A stretch of 36,961 nt of DNA, from positions 1 to 36,961 of the IMG/VR virus record IMGVR_UViG_3300047444_000377; one strand, given 5' to 3'. Source of the DNA: a virus. Under the pieces are notes generated by a model. The model was given only the letters and a program-made list of their open reading frames with translations. It was not told the origin of the DNA and made no database searches. Shown here piece after piece: positions 12,394 to 29,150 of this stretch; position 1 is the stretch's first letter, and each line of letters opens with the position of its first letter. Position numbers and translations under genes: made by a program.

Positions 12394-13087
12394 CCCACGG
12401 CCAGTCGGACGCCCACGGCTTTGTCCCGCCGTTGAACTGCACGAGTCTTGCGTCTACCGGGGGAGCCAGTCTCGATATGCCGGGGTCGCGGACTGAGTAG
12501 ATTCCCGCGGCTCTCGACATGTAGGGCTCGCGCTCTGCGAGGCAGTAGCTAATCCATCCTTGGTCTGAACCACGGTATCCCGCCCGGCGGGCAGCTGCGA
12601 TTGCGTTGCGAGGTGAGGCCACGAAACCGTCCCACACTTTGAGTCGCGTTCCGGTTGATATAATGTAGATGCCTCCGCCAAATCTTTTGCGGCGCACTCC
12701 CCAGTCCCGGTACGGATACCATCCGACAAATTCACCCTGCAGTTCGAATAGTGGCGAAAGATCGCCGAGGACCACGACGTCAATGTCCAGGAGTAGACAT
12801 CGTGATCCGAGAAGCCGAGCAGCTTCAGAGAACATCCAAAGTCGTCTATAACACGAAGGAAAGCGAGGGCCCTCTGGGGAACGCAGATCGGACAAGAGGG
12901 CTGCTTCGGGAGGGGTGGCAAGGACGTTGACGTGTTCACTGAATTGTTCCTTGGGTGAGTCGGTGATGCAGATGAAATTGTAGGGGCCGCCGCTCATGTG
13001 GCGGTTAATCATTCGCTCCATGATATTGACGTGGGCCGGCGCGAAGTTGCGCGTGCCGCCCCAGAGCCATGTGACTATCGCGCGCAC
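12323..13087 (-). CDS. Glycosyltransferase with DxD motif
   Basis: The start is GTG at 13087, which places the conserved opening AIVTWLWGGTRNFAPAHVN at the N-terminus; it overlaps the upstream gene by 13 bases. The 254-residue product has the nucleotide-sugar fold order ICITDSP (strand after the sugar-nucleotide loop), RRLWMFSEAARLLG, then LLLDIDVVVLGDLSPLF with D101-x-D103 as the metal-binding DxD. The later segment IYIISTGT...GSDQGWISYCL fits an acceptor-side region of GT8/GT-A type enzymes. It should transfer a sugar from a nucleotide donor, in the cytoplasm, to an unknown acceptor. It is the last gene of the leftward operon and collides with the plus-strand late genes. Confidence 0.75.
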   Translation of the reverse strand: MRAIVTWLWGGTRNFAPAHVNIMERMINRHMSGGPYNFICITDSPKEQFSEHVNVLATPPEAALLSDLRSPEGPRFPSCYRRLWMFSEAARLLGSRCLLLDIDVVVLGDLSPLFELQGEFVGWYPYRDWGVRRKRFGGGIYIISTGTRLKVWDGFVASPRNAIAAARRAGYRGSDQGWISYCLAEREPYMSRAAGIYSVRDPGISRLAPPVDARLVQFNGGTKPWASDWPWVRGAWQPVPTLRPRDLDSAEAVS

Positions 13088-13716
13088 GCCAGCTTCAGCA
13101 GGAAGCCGCCGGCACTTCCAATGTCGATCGCGTGGTGGTACTTCGACAGGCGGTTCGCCAGGCAGGTAGCCGTGGGGCCGCACGACATGATTATCACGTC
13201 GGGCTTGCCGGAGCGCAGCGCCTTTTCGAATTCGTCGATGCGGGCATATGACTCCCGGTGCGGGCACTCGACGTGCTTGATCTTGCGCGCCGTCAGGGCC
13301 AGCACCTTCATGATGGAGTTGGCGGGCTCGGCCAGCACAGCCACCGTCTTGCCAGCCCACAGCTGCGAAATCAGATTGTAGTAGGCGCGCGTGTTGATCC
13401 ACGGGGCGCTGTCTGGGCGGCTGATGAAGGCTGAGCCGTAGGTGTACTCCGGCACGATCGCGGCTTCGAAGCGCCGCTTGTGCCGCTGCCAGTTGCCGCC
13501 CTTTGGCCCCTCCGGGTCGAACGTGGGGATGCACGGCAGGCACCGGGCCCGCGGCTGCTTCAGGATGGCGCTGAGCTCGGCGGCCAGCTTGGGGCTGCCG
13601 GGCTCGCGCACGTAGCCGGTGCCCGCTGCCATCTTTATCTCGCCGTCACCGAAGCGGGACAGCGACCATCCCTCGAGTGCCATCTGTATCGTGGCGAATT
13701 CGCTCATGACTTTCAT
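13075..13716 (-). CDS. GT-D fold glycosyltransferase (DUF1792-like)
   Basis: The start is ATG at 13716; it overlaps the FkbM gene upstream by GTGA-type spacing. Residues 18-26 read SLSRFGDGE, the signature of the GT-D fold family (formerly DUF1792), in which the D-x-E pair (D24, E26) binds the metal and UDP-sugar. Later segments SAFISRPDSAPWIN, KTVAVLAEPANS and PDVIIMSCGPTATCLANRL-type order agree with that family, in which the enzyme adds a sugar to a growing glycan. Length (213) is close to a single GT-D domain. The four neighbouring genes are also glycan enzymes, so a shared pathway is likely. The acceptor cannot be read from sequence. Confidence 0.75.
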   Translation of the reverse strand: MKVMSEFATIQMALEGWSLSRFGDGEIKMAAGTGYVREPGSPKLAAELSAILKQPRARCLPCIPTFDPEGPKGGNWQRHKRRFEAAIVPEYTYGSAFISRPDSAPWINTRAYYNLISQLWAGKTVAVLAEPANSIMKVLALTARKIKHVECPHRESYARIDEFEKALRSGKPDVIIMSCGPTATCLANRLSKYHHAIDIGSAGGFLLKLACAR

Positions 13717-14279
13717 GAGAAGCCTACCATCGTCAGCCAGTTGCGGATGCGTGCCTCGTGCGTGGCGCCGTGCTGGATCTGCTTTGAGCTCAGCACGCTA
13801 GGGTGGGCCAGAAGCCGCTCCCGCGTGGCGGCCAAGTGGCCGTGCAATTCAGGGATCTTGTGCGCGTCGAACATCACCAACGTATGTGTCGGCAGGCAGT
13901 TGTTGTCGATCAGGTTATCGAGGACATCGAGCTCCGCGCCTTCGCAGTTGAGCTTCATGTATACCTCGTCGTGATCGGCGATGTTGGCGGCAAACCAGTC
14001 GGCCGCGTCTCGCATCTGGCAGGTAGTGTAGTGCGTGCCGCGGCCCTCGCGCTGCCAGAGGCTCGCGCCCATAGAGCCCGGATCATACAGCCGCACCTTG
14101 GCGTTGCTGCCCCACAGCCCGAACTTCTCGATGATGGCGGGGTATCCAAGCGCCAGTTTGCTCAGGATAGGCCAGTGCTGGGGCACGGGCTCGAAGCAAT
14201 GAATGCGATCGAAGGGCAGATCGCGGACAGCCTTCAGAGTCTGCCCGACGTGGGCGCCTACGTCTAAGAAGATTTTCAT
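13713..14279 (-). CDS. FkbM-type SAM-dependent methyltransferase
   Basis: ATG at 14279 is chosen over a TTG at 14294 because it forms an ATGA overlap with the previous stop. MKIFLDVGAHVGQTLKAV is the SAM-binding motif I (DVGAHxGQT). FDRIHCFEPVPQHWPIL is motif II with the acidic ribose-binding E. EVYMKLNCEGAELDVLDNL matches the FkbM KxDxEGxExxVL core, although D is N here (KLNCEGAE). The family methylates sugar hydroxyls, commonly in glycan or polyketide tailoring. Set between glycosyltransferases, it probably O-methylates a sugar of the same product. Confidence 0.85.
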   Translation of the reverse strand: MKIFLDVGAHVGQTLKAVRDLPFDRIHCFEPVPQHWPILSKLALGYPAIIEKFGLWGSNAKVRLYDPGSMGASLWQREGRGTHYTTCQMRDAADWFAANIADHDEVYMKLNCEGAELDVLDNLIDNNCLPTHTLVMFDAHKIPELHGHLAATRERLLAHPSVLSSKQIQHGATHEARIRNWLTMVGFS

Positions 14280-15001
14280 AGCACTTGATGCCAAGGGAAG
14301 TTGAGGGGCTTGATCGGCTTCAGATGTCCGAAGGCGCGCTTGCGCCGGCCGTACTCTGCGGTGTCCCGCGAGAGAGTGTGTTCGCTTGAGTCTGGCACAA
14401 CGCTGCGGGTGTAGACGTCCAGCGGGAAGGCCAGCACATGCGGCGTGCCCAGCGCCTCAGTAGCGCGCCGGAGAAATACCCCGCCGCCACCGAGGCAGCC
14501 AGCATAACGTTCATCGTAACCTCCAAGATCGAGATAGGCTTTGCGCTTCATGAGGTAGCTGTCGATGTGGGGCTTTATCTCCCCATGTTCTGCGTCTCGT
14601 GGGAGACTATCTTTGTTGCGCGTCTCGTCGGCCATGCCCACGCGGAAGCGCCGGAAGCGGTACCAGTCATCGTGTGCCGCGGGCAGCCACAGCATGAGCT
14701 CAGCCATCACGTTCGCCGACATGACGTGGTCGATGTCGACGTGCATGATCCACTCGGTTGTCGCCACATGGGCGCCGAGGTTACGCGCGCCGTTGCGGTT
14801 CCACGGGATGTCTTTGGTGATGCGGTACAGGCTCAGCTGGCTCGGCGGATGGTCGATGTACTGCTCCGCATCCTCCGGGCTGCCGTCGTCCACCAAGATG
14901 ACCTTCACGTCGGTCGGGTAGTGTCGCCACTGCGTCATCTGCAGCTGCAGCATCAGCGGCTGGCGGTAATAGGGAACGATCAGAGTGAATCCGGCGGGCA
15001 T
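14276..15001 (-). CDS. GT2-family glycosyltransferase
   Basis: ATG at 15001 has AAGGAG nine bases upstream and fits the family start (FTLIVPYYRQPLMLQLQM). Motifs in order: KVILVDDGSPEDA (nucleotide-binding DDGS), NGARNLGAHVATTEWIMHVDIDHVM (metal-binding DxD as DID), SYLMKRKAYLDLGGYDERY (acceptor loop with the GGYDE element), then a C-terminal GRRKRAFGHLKP. This is a complete single-domain GT-A enzyme of about 242 residues. It ends in ATGA with the FkbM gene and begins inside the end of a lipoprotein gene. The role is sugar transfer in the glycan module; donor and acceptor are not predictable. Confidence 0.85.
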   Translation of the reverse strand: MPAGFTLIVPYYRQPLMLQLQMTQWRHYPTDVKVILVDDGSPEDAEQYIDHPPSQLSLYRITKDIPWNRNGARNLGAHVATTEWIMHVDIDHVMSANVMAELMLWLPAAHDDWYRFRRFRVGMADETRNKDSLPRDAEHGEIKPHIDSYLMKRKAYLDLGGYDERYAGCLGGGGVFLRRATEALGTPHVLAFPLDVYTRSVVPDSSEHTLSRDTAEYGRRKRAFGHLKPIKPLNFPWHQVL

Positions 15002-15177
15002 TGCTCGAGCTCCTTCGTTGCCGGGTTTACCCGGTAGACCATCGTGCGGCAAGTGTTGTCGCCGGCCTTGAGATTTTCCTGGTCCCACGACTGGCTCTTC
15101 GGCGGCGCGTCATGGTGCAGATGCCACGCGGCATCGCAGCCGGCGAGGAACGTGAACAGGATGATGACTAGGGCCAT
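14980..15177 (-). CDS. Small lipoprotein, 65 aa
   Basis: ATG at 15177 gives MALVIILFTFLAGCDAAW, a signal peptide with lipobox L-A-G-C; Cys14 would be lipidated by signal peptidase II. The residue after Cys is Asp, the Lol-avoidance signal of enterobacteria, so inner-membrane retention is expected. The mature part is about 52 polar residues with two more Cys (NTCRTMVYRVN, EQCPPDS). A ribosome site AAGGTG lies upstream. It overlaps the DUF3310 gene by 10 bases and the GT2 gene by 22. Phage lipoproteins of this size often act in superinfection exclusion or lysis, but no family is recognisable. Confidence 0.65.
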   Translation of the reverse strand: MALVIILFTFLAGCDAAWHLHHDAPPKSQSWDQENLKAGDNTCRTMVYRVNPATKELEQCPPDSL

Positions 15178-26235: not shown

Positions 26236-27386
26236 TGAACTTCCTCCAAGCCAAACTCTAAGGCCGGGAGCGGCCGCCCTTCCTCGTTCCACTTCGCCAA
26301 GCTGGGGGCGCCTGGCGGCTGTTCGACCAGCATGGCGACTTCCGTGTAGGGCTGCTTGGCAGCCTTCAGGCGCCGCTCGGCCTCGGTGGGGCTCACAAGC
26401 TTGGGCTTCTCGTGTGGGTCGATGCCCAGCGCCCGGAGCTCCATTGCAGCCACGTCTACGTCTATCCACCGGCGATTGCCGCGCTTGCCCTCGATCAGCT
26501 TGTAGCCGGGGATAGCCTTGCCCGCGGTCGCGCGGCGCAGCCCCTCGGCACGGATGTCGCGCCAAAACGCTTCGCGGGCGTCGGCCTTGTCCAGCAGTTG
26601 CCCGACTTCGGCATCCGAGAGGGCGGACAGCGGGACGGGATTATCTTCTATGGGGAATTCCGTGAGCACCTGAGTGGCTCGCGCCTTGCAGTTCGCCCGC
26701 GCCGGGCACCACTGGCACTGCTTGTCGCCGGGGTTGAGGCCGCCGCCCGTTGTCGACATAGCCAGCTTCGCGGCCTCGGCGAAGTGCTCACCGGCATTGC
26801 GTACGTGCTCCGCCGTCGTCTCCCACATGCGCGGCTCGCCGCGCTTGGGCTGGAATACCCAGAGGCGCACTGTGTCGTAGTCAGTGCCAAACTCGTCGAA
26901 CTTGTGCAGCGCCGCGGCCGCGTACAGCAGCATCTGGCGGTTCTCTTCAACGTCAACGTAGCCGTAGCCGAATTTGTGGTCGCCCACGTTGAGCACGCGC
27001 GCCACCTTGTCGCCTATGACCACGTCGCCGGTACCCTTCTGGTCCGGCACGCCCAGCACCGGGGAGGTGTCGAGCTCGATTTCAAACCACCGGCTGCTGC
27101 CAGGAATGGCGCGCACGGCGTCGAGGCAGTAGTTGACGTGCGCGATAAACTCGTCGTCGATTTCGCCCGCGAAGCCCTCGTGGGCCCACGGCTGGCCCTT
27201 GAGCCCATCAGCCATCATGCCGGGGAAGCTGTGCATCAAAGCCCAATAAACGGCTTCATGCTTGGCAGAGCCCAGCGCGCTCGCCTCGTTCGGCGGGTTC
27301 GGGATGTCCTTGCAGAGCTCGACGCTGCCGGGGCAGCGCGTCCAGCGGTCGGCGCTGGATGGCGATAGAACGCTGTGGCCGCTCAT
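26232..27386 (-). CDS. DUF2800 PD-(D/E)XK (Cas4/RecB-like) nuclease
   Basis: The start is ATG at 27386. The family order is clear: SPSSADRWTRCPGSVEL, the ALGSAKHEAVYW helix, GTGDVVIGDK (D121), NVGDHKFGYGYVDVEENRQ (D136-x-K138 catalytic pair, Q151) and LLYAAAAL. These are the RecB/Cas4-type nuclease motifs. C18 together with C224, C227 and C233 (CQWCPARANC) could hold an iron-sulfur cluster, as in Cas4 and AddB; that is inference. A C-terminal part of about 120 residues, with a TAGKAIPGYKLIEGKRGNR segment, is typical of the phage group. It probably acts as an exonuclease in recombination-dependent replication. Confidence 0.88.
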   Translation of the reverse strand: MSGHSVLSPSSADRWTRCPGSVELCKDIPNPPNEASALGSAKHEAVYWALMHSFPGMMADGLKGQPWAHEGFAGEIDDEFIAHVNYCLDAVRAIPGSSRWFEIELDTSPVLGVPDQKGTGDVVIGDKVARVLNVGDHKFGYGYVDVEENRQMLLYAAAALHKFDEFGTDYDTVRLWVFQPKRGEPRMWETTAEHVRNAGEHFAEAAKLAMSTTGGGLNPGDKQCQWCPARANCKARATQVLTEFPIEDNPVPLSALSDAEVGQLLDKADAREAFWRDIRAEGLRRATAGKAIPGYKLIEGKRGNRRWIDVDVAAMELRALGIDPHEKPKLVSPTEAERRLKAAKQPYTEVAMLVEQPPGAPSLAKWNEEGRPLPALEFGLEEVQ

Positions 27387-27583
27387 GTTTTCCTCCGTAT
27401 CAGCTGCGCATTGCGCTTCTCGAGCAGCTTCTGTAACCGAGAGATTTCATGCCGCTGCGCGATGATCTGCTCGTTAGCTTCCGGGCAGCGGTGGCGCGAG
27501 AATTCACCGTCGTAATAGTCGCCGTCCGTGGAGCAATACTTGCAGCCGCCGGGACCGGCGATAGCAACGTCTAGCGTCTTCAC
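27383..27583 (-). CDS. Cys-rich coiled-coil small protein, 66 aa
   Basis: The start is GTG at 27583 in GTGA overlap with the PEP-CTERM gene; it ends in ATGA with the nuclease gene. The first half has GGCKYCSTDGDYYDGE and SRHRCPEAN, three Cys plus His, perhaps a zinc site. The second half is a heptad helix (IIAQRHEISRLQKLLEKRN) that could dimerise. It has no signal peptide. Function unknown. Confidence 0.6.
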   Translation of the reverse strand: MKTLDVAIAGPGGCKYCSTDGDYYDGEFSRHRCPEANEQIIAQRHEISRLQKLLEKRNAQLIRRKT

Positions 27584-27846
27584 TTGCGCCGTCTCCTGGC
27601 GGCCAGCACCGCGGCCACGCCGCTGCCCAGCATGAGCAGGCTGGCGGGCTCGGGCACTGACTGCGTCGGCACCGGGCGCTCTACCGGGCCCTCATGGCGC
27701 GGCGGCAAGTAGACATACTCGCAGTCCTGCGGCTTGAGTTTGATGTTCGGCTCGTCGGAGCACTCGCGCGCTTCGGCGGGCATCGCCCAGACGGTGAAGA
27801 GGATCAGCGCGAGCACGAGGGCGGCGCCGTATACTAGGCGCGTCAC
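27580..27846 (-). CDS. Phage-encoded PEP-CTERM surface protein, 88 aa
   Basis: The start is GTG at 27846 in GTGA overlap with the upstream gene. Residues 1-26 form a classical signal peptide ending A-M-P-A-E-A (cleavage after Ala26). The mature part is only about 35 residues with two Cys (RECSDEPNIKLKPQDC). Then comes a complete PEP-CTERM sorting signal: SVPEPASLLMLGSGVAAVLA, hydrophobic span, and a terminal RRRRK cluster. In bacteria this signal is recognised by an exosortase that cleaves and transfers the protein to the outer surface or matrix. No exosortase gene is seen here, so the host enzyme would be used. The mature part shows no known domain. Confidence 0.85.
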   Translation of the reverse strand: MTRLVYGAALVLALILFTVWAMPAEARECSDEPNIKLKPQDCEYVYLPPRHEGPVERPVPTQSVPEPASLLMLGSGVAAVLAARRRRK

Positions 27847-28010
27847 GGGTGACGCTCCAGCCAGATCGCCGTCGTCACCTTCGGCTGCATTGGCCGGAGG
27901 TGCAGATCATCCAGCTGCCGCTCTAGGCGGTGAAGCATGAAGAGCATCCCGGCGATGATCGCGCAGCCCGCGGCCAGTAACCCGGCGGCGTGCCATACGA
28001 ATTTGTTCAA
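27843..28010 (-). CDS. Single-span small membrane protein, 55 aa
   Basis: TTG at 28010 has GGAGA just upstream and overlaps the previous stop (TTGA); its own stop overlaps the PEP-CTERM start (GTGA). MNKFVWHAAGLLAAGCAIIA followed by GMLFMLHRL is one membrane segment with a basic N-terminal end. A short helix (ERQLDDLHLRPMQPKVTTA) follows. It is missed by length thresholds but fits the overlap chain exactly. No family is recognised. Confidence 0.6.
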   Translation of the reverse strand: MNKFVWHAAGLLAAGCAIIAGMLFMLHRLERQLDDLHLRPMQPKVTTAIWLERHP

Positions 28011-28111
28011 GGGTTTCTCCACAGTTTGTAGAGTAGGAGCAGCATGACAAGCGTCCAGATAGCGACGAGCGTCACGCCGAAGCGGAACATGATTATCAGG
28101 AATGTGAGCAT
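28007..28111 (-). CDS. Tiny hydrophobic membrane peptide, 34 aa
   Basis: ATG at 28111 opens MLTFLIIMFRFGVTLVAIW and continues to TLVMLLLLYKLWRNP, almost entirely hydrophobic with one Arg in the middle, giving one long or two short spans. Its stop overlaps the following TTG (TTGA). No ribosome site is clear. Support is the overlap chain plus extreme hydrophobicity. Function unknown. Confidence 0.5.
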   Translation of the reverse strand: MLTFLIIMFRFGVTLVAIWTLVMLLLLYKLWRNP

Positions 28112-28673: not shown

Positions 28674-29150
28674 TTACAGTTCAGTTATCTGCATTCCGCT
28701 GCCGCCGCGATGGAACGGGACATCCGGCTTGCCTGTTTTCGGGAGCGAAGGTACCACGCCACAAACGGCGTTGCCAACACTTTCTGCGACGCTGCCAGGC
28801 GCGATGGGCTTGGCGATTGCGTCCACTTCGCCGACGCCGCCGACTATTGTCGCGTTGTCCGCCAGATCGTAACTCGACTGTACTTGCCATGTGCGCTTGC
28901 CGCAGTCGAGCGCAATACGCCCAGCAGAGCCCGCAGGCAGGCTCTTGTCGCGGCCCTTGGGACTGTAGGCAATCAGCACGATGACCGAGACGCGGCCGTC
29001 TGGCAGCTGTACCTGATGCTCTAGGTCAACTACGGCGGCCGCCTGATCGTTTCTGAACACAATCTGCATACGGTCGCCCTTGTGGGGGATGTCGCTCTGA
29101 GCGGCAGCGATGGCGGCGGCTGATACGACGAGCGCGGCGAATAGGTTCAA
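28674..29150 (-). CDS. Secreted Adhesin_E-like protein
   Basis: TTG at 29150 is preceded by AGGAG and overlaps the previous stop (TTGA). A signal peptide MNLFAALVVSAAAIAAAQS is followed by a beta-rich domain. The segment ALDCGKRTWQVQSSYDL then KPIAPGSVAESVGNAVC has the features of surface-adhesin protein E-type domains: an early Cys near the W/Y strand, an IxPGS loop and a terminal Cys that would form a disulfide. Phages carry secreted proteins of this look, of unknown role. The match is by eye and should be treated as a hypothesis; the exported nature is firm. Confidence 0.6.
   Translation of the reverse strand: MNLFAALVVSAAAIAAAQSDIPHKGDRMQIVFRNDQAAAVVDLEHQVQLPDGRVSVIVLIAYSPKGRDKSLPAGSAGRIALDCGKRTWQVQSSYDLADNATIVGGVGEVDAIAKPIAPGSVAESVGNAVCGVVPSLPKTGKPDVPFHRGGSGMQITEL

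Follow-up and report, generated by a model that had tools for sequence, protein, structure and literature searches.

Many soil and water bacteria use an export tag together with a tail tag for proteins bound for their slimy outer coat. Why a phage should encode a protein carrying both tags is the question raised by a small gene found in the 36,961-bp virus record IMGVR_UViG_3300047444_000377, which was analysed in its full length and is called the window below. A sequence-only reading of this DNA had proposed that the gene encodes a complete PEP-CTERM exosortase substrate, that such a signal is not known to have been described as an early-gene feature of phages and that a decoy, a competitive inhibitor of exosortase or a surface-masking peptide is more plausible than an enzyme.

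Architecture of the 88-residue protein

The gene (positions 27580–27846, minus strand) starts with GTG and encodes 88 residues, which we divided into MTRLVYGAALVLALILFTVWAMPAEA (leader, residues ~1–26), RECSDEPNIKLKPQDCEYVYLPPRHEGPVERPVPTQS (mature part, ~27–63) and VPEPASLLMLGSGVAAVLAARRRRK (PEP-CTERM tail, 63–88). The expected N-terminal signal peptide was recognized by inspection as a Sec-type leader (MTR-LVYGAALVLALILFTVWAMP-AEA) with n-, h- and c-regions, an arginine in the n-region, a hydrophobic core of ~19 residues and an A-x-A cleavage site (AEA). The mature part, previously estimated as about 35 residues, comprises ~37 residues with exactly two cysteines; by inspection, residues 27–62 are polar and proline-rich, with no extra membrane span between leader and tail. 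The sorting signal (27583–27660, minus strand) forms the extreme C terminus and combines VPEPASLLML, a hydrophobic span and the basic cluster RRRRK, as in the textbook signal reported earlier.

The HMMER search with PEP-CTERM models, suggested as a check of this assignment, gave scores above both curated cut-offs. In the protein scan PF07589 matched residues 63–86 with 30.6 bits (E 3.1e-7, cut-off 20.7), and TIGR02595 matched residues 64–88 with 25.9 bits (cut-off 16); a chance explanation was rejected. In the genome scan the sorting signal scored 32.8 bits with PF07589 (27589–27660), which is the only match of this model in the whole window, and 14 control genomes gave no matches at all. Models of VPLPA-CTERM (18.8 bits, cut-off 25.35), VPDSG-CTERM (13.9, cut-off 25) and MYXO-CTERM (15.1, cut-off 20) remained below their thresholds. 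These data support the assignment of the product, by its architecture, as a complete PEP-CTERM exosortase substrate encoded in a phage replication operon. What the mature peptide does cannot be read from its sequence.

Coding reality and genomic context

GC content at the three codon positions of the gene (0.72/0.49/0.90, that is 90% GC3) is similar to that of the neighbouring DUF2800 gene (0.68/0.46/0.84). The gene shares 4 bp with each neighbour: the last 4 bp of the upstream ORF (28022–27843) include its start, and its own last 4 bp include the start of the downstream ORF (27583–27383). In a second, independent contig (L002), 97.6% identical to the window in the DNA around the gene, only one difference was registered within its 267 bp, and this difference is synonymous. 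Because of the codon GC profile, both overlaps and the single synonymous change, the gene is real and a member of an operon. This leftward replication operon includes genes of DUF2800/exonuclease, Gp2.5-like ssDNA-binding protein, VRR-NUC, DNA polymerase A and primase, and from its place here the gene is probably an early one, as was assumed before.

The downstream 66-aa ORF (27383–27583, minus strand) matches nothing in Pfam, and its PHROG matches are weak (best E 0.023); it is followed by the next operon gene, DUF2800/phage exonuclease (26232–27386, minus strand; PF10926, 212 bits; phrog_69). The 158-aa ORF at 28674–29150 (minus strand), with a leader-like N terminus and weak sub-threshold similarity to Adhesin_E, appears to be another envelope-type gene of the same operon. 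Immediately before the PEP-CTERM gene there are two tiny single-span hydrophobic ORFs (27843–28111, minus strand). One of them (59 aa, 27843–28022, minus strand) has one hydrophobic segment by inspection and is that whose stop overlaps the gene; the other (34 aa, 28007–28111, minus strand) has a look-alike in a 38-aa ORF located directly before DUF2800 in a sister phage, L124, the likeness being judged by eye (FRF..L..IW.LV...LY.LWRN).

The terminase of the window is nearest to those of Pseudanabaena phage Pan3 and Microcystis phage Mwe-JY13 (~43–44%), and the needle and ejection proteins of Pan3 are those of a P22-like podovirus. No integrase was found among the subset of window ORFs scanned. 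The earlier statement that the window contains no exosortase gene agrees with our data for selected ORFs scanned against family libraries, among which none was identified. A cluster of phage-borne glycosyltransferase (GT-D, GT2) and FkbM-type methyltransferase-like genes was observed at 12454–15088 (minus strand).

A leader followed by a C-terminal membrane span is the outline of a unimolecular spanin, and the 88-residue protein resembles it. Its function as a spanin-like or other lysis protein is, however, highly improbable: its leader ends with PAEA-REC and has no lipobox, the gene sits in the replication operon, and the window already has at 16.8–17.9 kb an endolysin and an Rz-like spanin (17271–16789), with an embedded Rz1-like lipoprotein ORF seen by inspection.

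Sister phages and relatives

In the sister phage L124, whose DUF2800 is 58% identical to that of the window, a 137-aa protein ending with HEGAPARPQSVPEPGGALILLTGVVVIIVTRFARASAG is encoded ~3 kb upstream of DUF2800. By tblastn, residues 51–87 of the window protein align with this sister-phage homologue (L124/L311) at 46% identity with E 1e-4. The homologue of L124 keeps PEP and a hydrophobic tail; it has no clear leader and obtained no PF07589 score even at E≤1. The sorting signal in this lineage may have been lost or altered, and judging from the sequences it seems not to be strictly kept. In the same sister phage (L124:6541-7076:+) a 41-residue leader-like frame has a 4-bp overlap with the leaderless PEP-containing 137-aa ORF, an arrangement that may reflect gene splitting or a frameshift.

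Among 50 relatives (48 virus contigs, many of them fragments, collected via the PEP gene itself, TerL or DUF2800, plus two annotated phages) only two had a PEP-CTERM that exceeded the cut-off. The first belongs to the same phage species as the window; the second, phage G047, has a strong signal in a different protein of 213 aa, the gene of which is flanked by an SGNH-hydrolase-like gene and an acidic ORF resembling a scaffold protein. A related-locus search with the 88-aa protein alone gave matches limited to the same phage species, and tblastn of this protein against INPHARED revealed, outside the tail, only chance matches.

Such restricted distribution and the other location of the gene in the sister phage might be expected for a passenger: a truncated PEP-CTERM gene captured from a host, which has no present function for the phage. 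This origin is doubtful in view of the 4-bp overlaps on both sides, the 90% GC3 and the lack of amino-acid changes between two contigs. Besides, in the study that gave the defining features of PEP-CTERM proteins (PMC1569441, 2006) most of their genes were found to be single-gene operons behind long intergenic regions, unlike the window gene.

The sister-phage homologue, keeping PEP and the hydrophobic tail but failing the PEP-CTERM model, would fit an uncleaved effector of the inner membrane. In this case the product would be a type I membrane protein that excludes superinfecting phages, blocks DNA entry or takes part in membrane signalling; its PEP motif would be incidental. Two hydrophobic segments and a basic tail are sufficient for such topology, and the neighbouring ORFs encode small single-span proteins. 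Nevertheless, we consider this possibility rather unlikely: the high PEP-CTERM score sets the tail apart from a stop-transfer segment of random sequence, and phages unrelated to this one have proteins built in the same way.

PEP-CTERM proteins in other phages

The degenerate pattern VPEPA[ST]L..LL[GA] was registered in at least 120 stretches of IMG/VR. With very few exceptions, the tails of all 121 matched frames listed are hydrophobic, mostly basic and end shortly after the pattern, and 105 of the 111 uncut proteins among the matches listed have a hydrophobic N terminus. The second pattern, VPEPG, gave 25 stretches (complete listing), most of which are PEP-CTERM proteins. A tight tail HMM built in the course of this analysis missed the divergent tail of L306 and was left out of the counts. 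PEP-CTERM genes are, therefore, widespread on IMG/VR contigs and not rare in phages. A 26-aa consensus tail had no match in phages and plasmids, which is uninformative, as low-complexity masking probably hid the query; a 29-aa probe with fewer repeats matched 13 plasmid records and none of 50,697 annotated phage records. The absence from annotated records would fit a culture bias towards hosts without the exosortase system. No study devoted to phage PEP-CTERM proteins was found in the open-access literature, so virus-borne proteins with this tag are apparently common yet undescribed. A study of hot-spring viruses (PMC11003980) mentions in passing 13 proteins carried by viruses and assigned to TIGR03118, whose members have an exosortase-interaction domain at the C terminus. 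Hence the novelty supposed for the signal holds with respect to dedicated description, but not with respect to occurrence.

One family accounts for 52 of the 107 full-length phage PEP-CTERM proteins among the matches listed, if grouped on the tail-free part (alignment A4); 24 of its at least 52 members are distinct at 70% identity. In 32 of the 52 family loci listed the gene adjoins a terminase-type ORF of the same strand at a median distance of 131 bp, in 9 a portal gene is located ~2.8 kb upstream and in 19 a small ORF lies directly downstream. Example terminase and portal genes were confirmed by PHROGs, and terminases, endolysins, ParB and methyltransferases were present among 115 neighbouring ORFs scanned in long contigs. 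The family spans L003–L122 (for instance L013:2834-3472:-, L060:2698-3363:- and L105), its gene usually standing directly after that of terminase. Scanned members have no PHROG match and, besides PEP-CTERM, no Pfam match. For the mature domain of ~170 aa a confident all-beta model was predicted (pLDDT 91.9), which has no significant fold match in PDB or BFVD and indicates no function. The search for this family in 399 genomes of the Methyloversatilis (G062) order, carried out without a positive control, gave no match, and this negative carries no weight.

Three further miniatures of 59–99 aa, all passing PF07589, were found in unrelated phages: 99 aa in L070 (a 35-kb contig with a VRR-NUC gene nearby), 59 aa in L100 (adjoining a VRR-NUC gene) and 82 aa in L352 (L352:3732-3980:+, immediately preceded by a terminase-like ORF and followed by a portal gene). 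The miniatures of L100 and L352 have, like the window protein, exactly two cysteines in the mature part. The number of cysteines in this part is even (zero included) in 101 of the 107 phage PEP-CTERM proteins among the matches listed. For representatives with cysteines at 70% identity among these matches the ratio is 37 even to 5 odd (p 2e-7), and the coarsest clustering weakens the excess to 12 versus 5 (p 0.07). Even counts suggest disulfides formed in an oxidising compartment, i.e. in the periplasm or outside the cell.

A very short mature part combined with a strong tail, repeated in the 59–99 aa versions of other phages, would also suit a decoy or inhibitor: a tiny substrate saturating the host exosortase would keep host PEP-CTERM proteins off the surface, thus loosening flocs and biofilm or stripping receptors. 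Floc and biofilm phenotypes known for PEP-CTERM/exosortase mutants (PMC12188702) are in line with this idea, and it formed part of the sequence-only reading, but it found no positive support and appears unlikely. Most phage PEP-CTERM proteins among the matches listed have a sizeable mature domain (~150–200 aa), diverse or conserved, which is needless for a decoy and favours surface delivery as the general use of the tag. Short proteins are about as rare in phages (3 of ~129 full-length listed) as in cells, where 4 of 97 open frames had fewer than 130 codons, so they are not enriched. Furthermore, with up to 68 substrates per host a decoy would need high expression. A surface role, which would include the masking peptide of the earlier proposal, therefore seems more likely than the decoy. 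We would place the uncleaved effector first among the rivals, the decoy second and the passenger third.

Host exosortase

If the phage uses the exosortase of its host, hosts of related phages should have this enzyme. Exosortase PF09721 was detected in 7 of 28 genomes with TerL-related loci (prophages), so some of these hosts do carry it; the similarity of these loci (best ~45–48%) is too broad for host assignment. PEP-CTERM was present in all 6 exosortase-positive and in none of 5 exosortase-negative genomes tested. Because in these 11 genomes the signal occurred only together with exosortase, it may serve as a sequence-based clue to phage hosts. A 20-kb stretch of the window compared with 993 genomes of three groups (297 + 399 + 297) revealed no prophage and no clear host, giving only short matches of 68–96% identity. 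Two of the best matches, those in G376 and G373, lay on the DNA of the PEP-CTERM tail, yet these loci contained no PEP-CTERM end and G376 has no exosortase, so both matches were treated as chance.

Proposed function

Based on these data one can assume that the phage expresses a miniature exosortase substrate during infection. The leader would route the 88-aa protein through Sec, and the PEP-CTERM tail would keep it in the inner membrane so that PEP faces the periplasm; host exosortase of XrtA/EpsH type would then cut off the tail. The peptide of ~37 residues, probably with one disulfide, would be passed on to the outer surface or to exopolysaccharide. That the protein is exported, cleaved and delivered to the surface is deduced here from what is known of the PEP-CTERM/EpsH system (PMC1569441, PMC12188702). 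As for the benefit to the phage, which we infer, the peptide would most likely alter the surface of the infected cell, for example by hiding receptor or EPS from a second phage or by changing how EPS is attached. Taken as a whole, this scheme has, in our estimate, about an even chance of being correct.

It is equally a matter of balanced chances whether it is common for phages of Gram-negative bacteria with exosortase to encode PEP-CTERM proteins of their own and to display them on the infected cell via the host enzyme, so that the terminase-adjacent family and the two-cysteine miniatures would be two forms of one undescribed strategy changing surface or EPS. If the protein is processed as predicted, viruses use a dedicated surface-sorting pathway of bacteria. 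This would give a handle on the roles of exosortase products, which are still poorly known, and could point, in bacteria of soil, sludge and freshwater, to proteins of a new class that exclude superinfection or alter EPS.

Comparison with known systems

From unimolecular spanins and Rz1 the window protein differs in the absence of a lipobox cysteine at the leader end. Its best partial match at the equivalog level is PepA, a flocculation-associated PEP-CTERM protein (NF033554, 28.3 bits, cut-off 80), which covers the C-terminal signal only, with no similarity outside it. The terminase-adjacent family is likewise phage-borne and has both leader and PEP-CTERM; unlike the window protein, it carries an all-beta mature domain of ~170 aa and stands beside terminase, the two being unrelated outside the tail. 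Compared with typical PEP-CTERM genes, that of the window is phage-encoded and belongs to an overlapping replication operon rather than standing alone behind a long upstream region, and compared with typical PEP-CTERM proteins its mature part is of only ~37 aa with two cysteines. With the PEP-CTERM/exosortase (XrtA/EpsH) system itself (PF07589/TIGR02595) the window protein shares the leader, PEP motif, hydrophobic span and C-terminal basic cluster.
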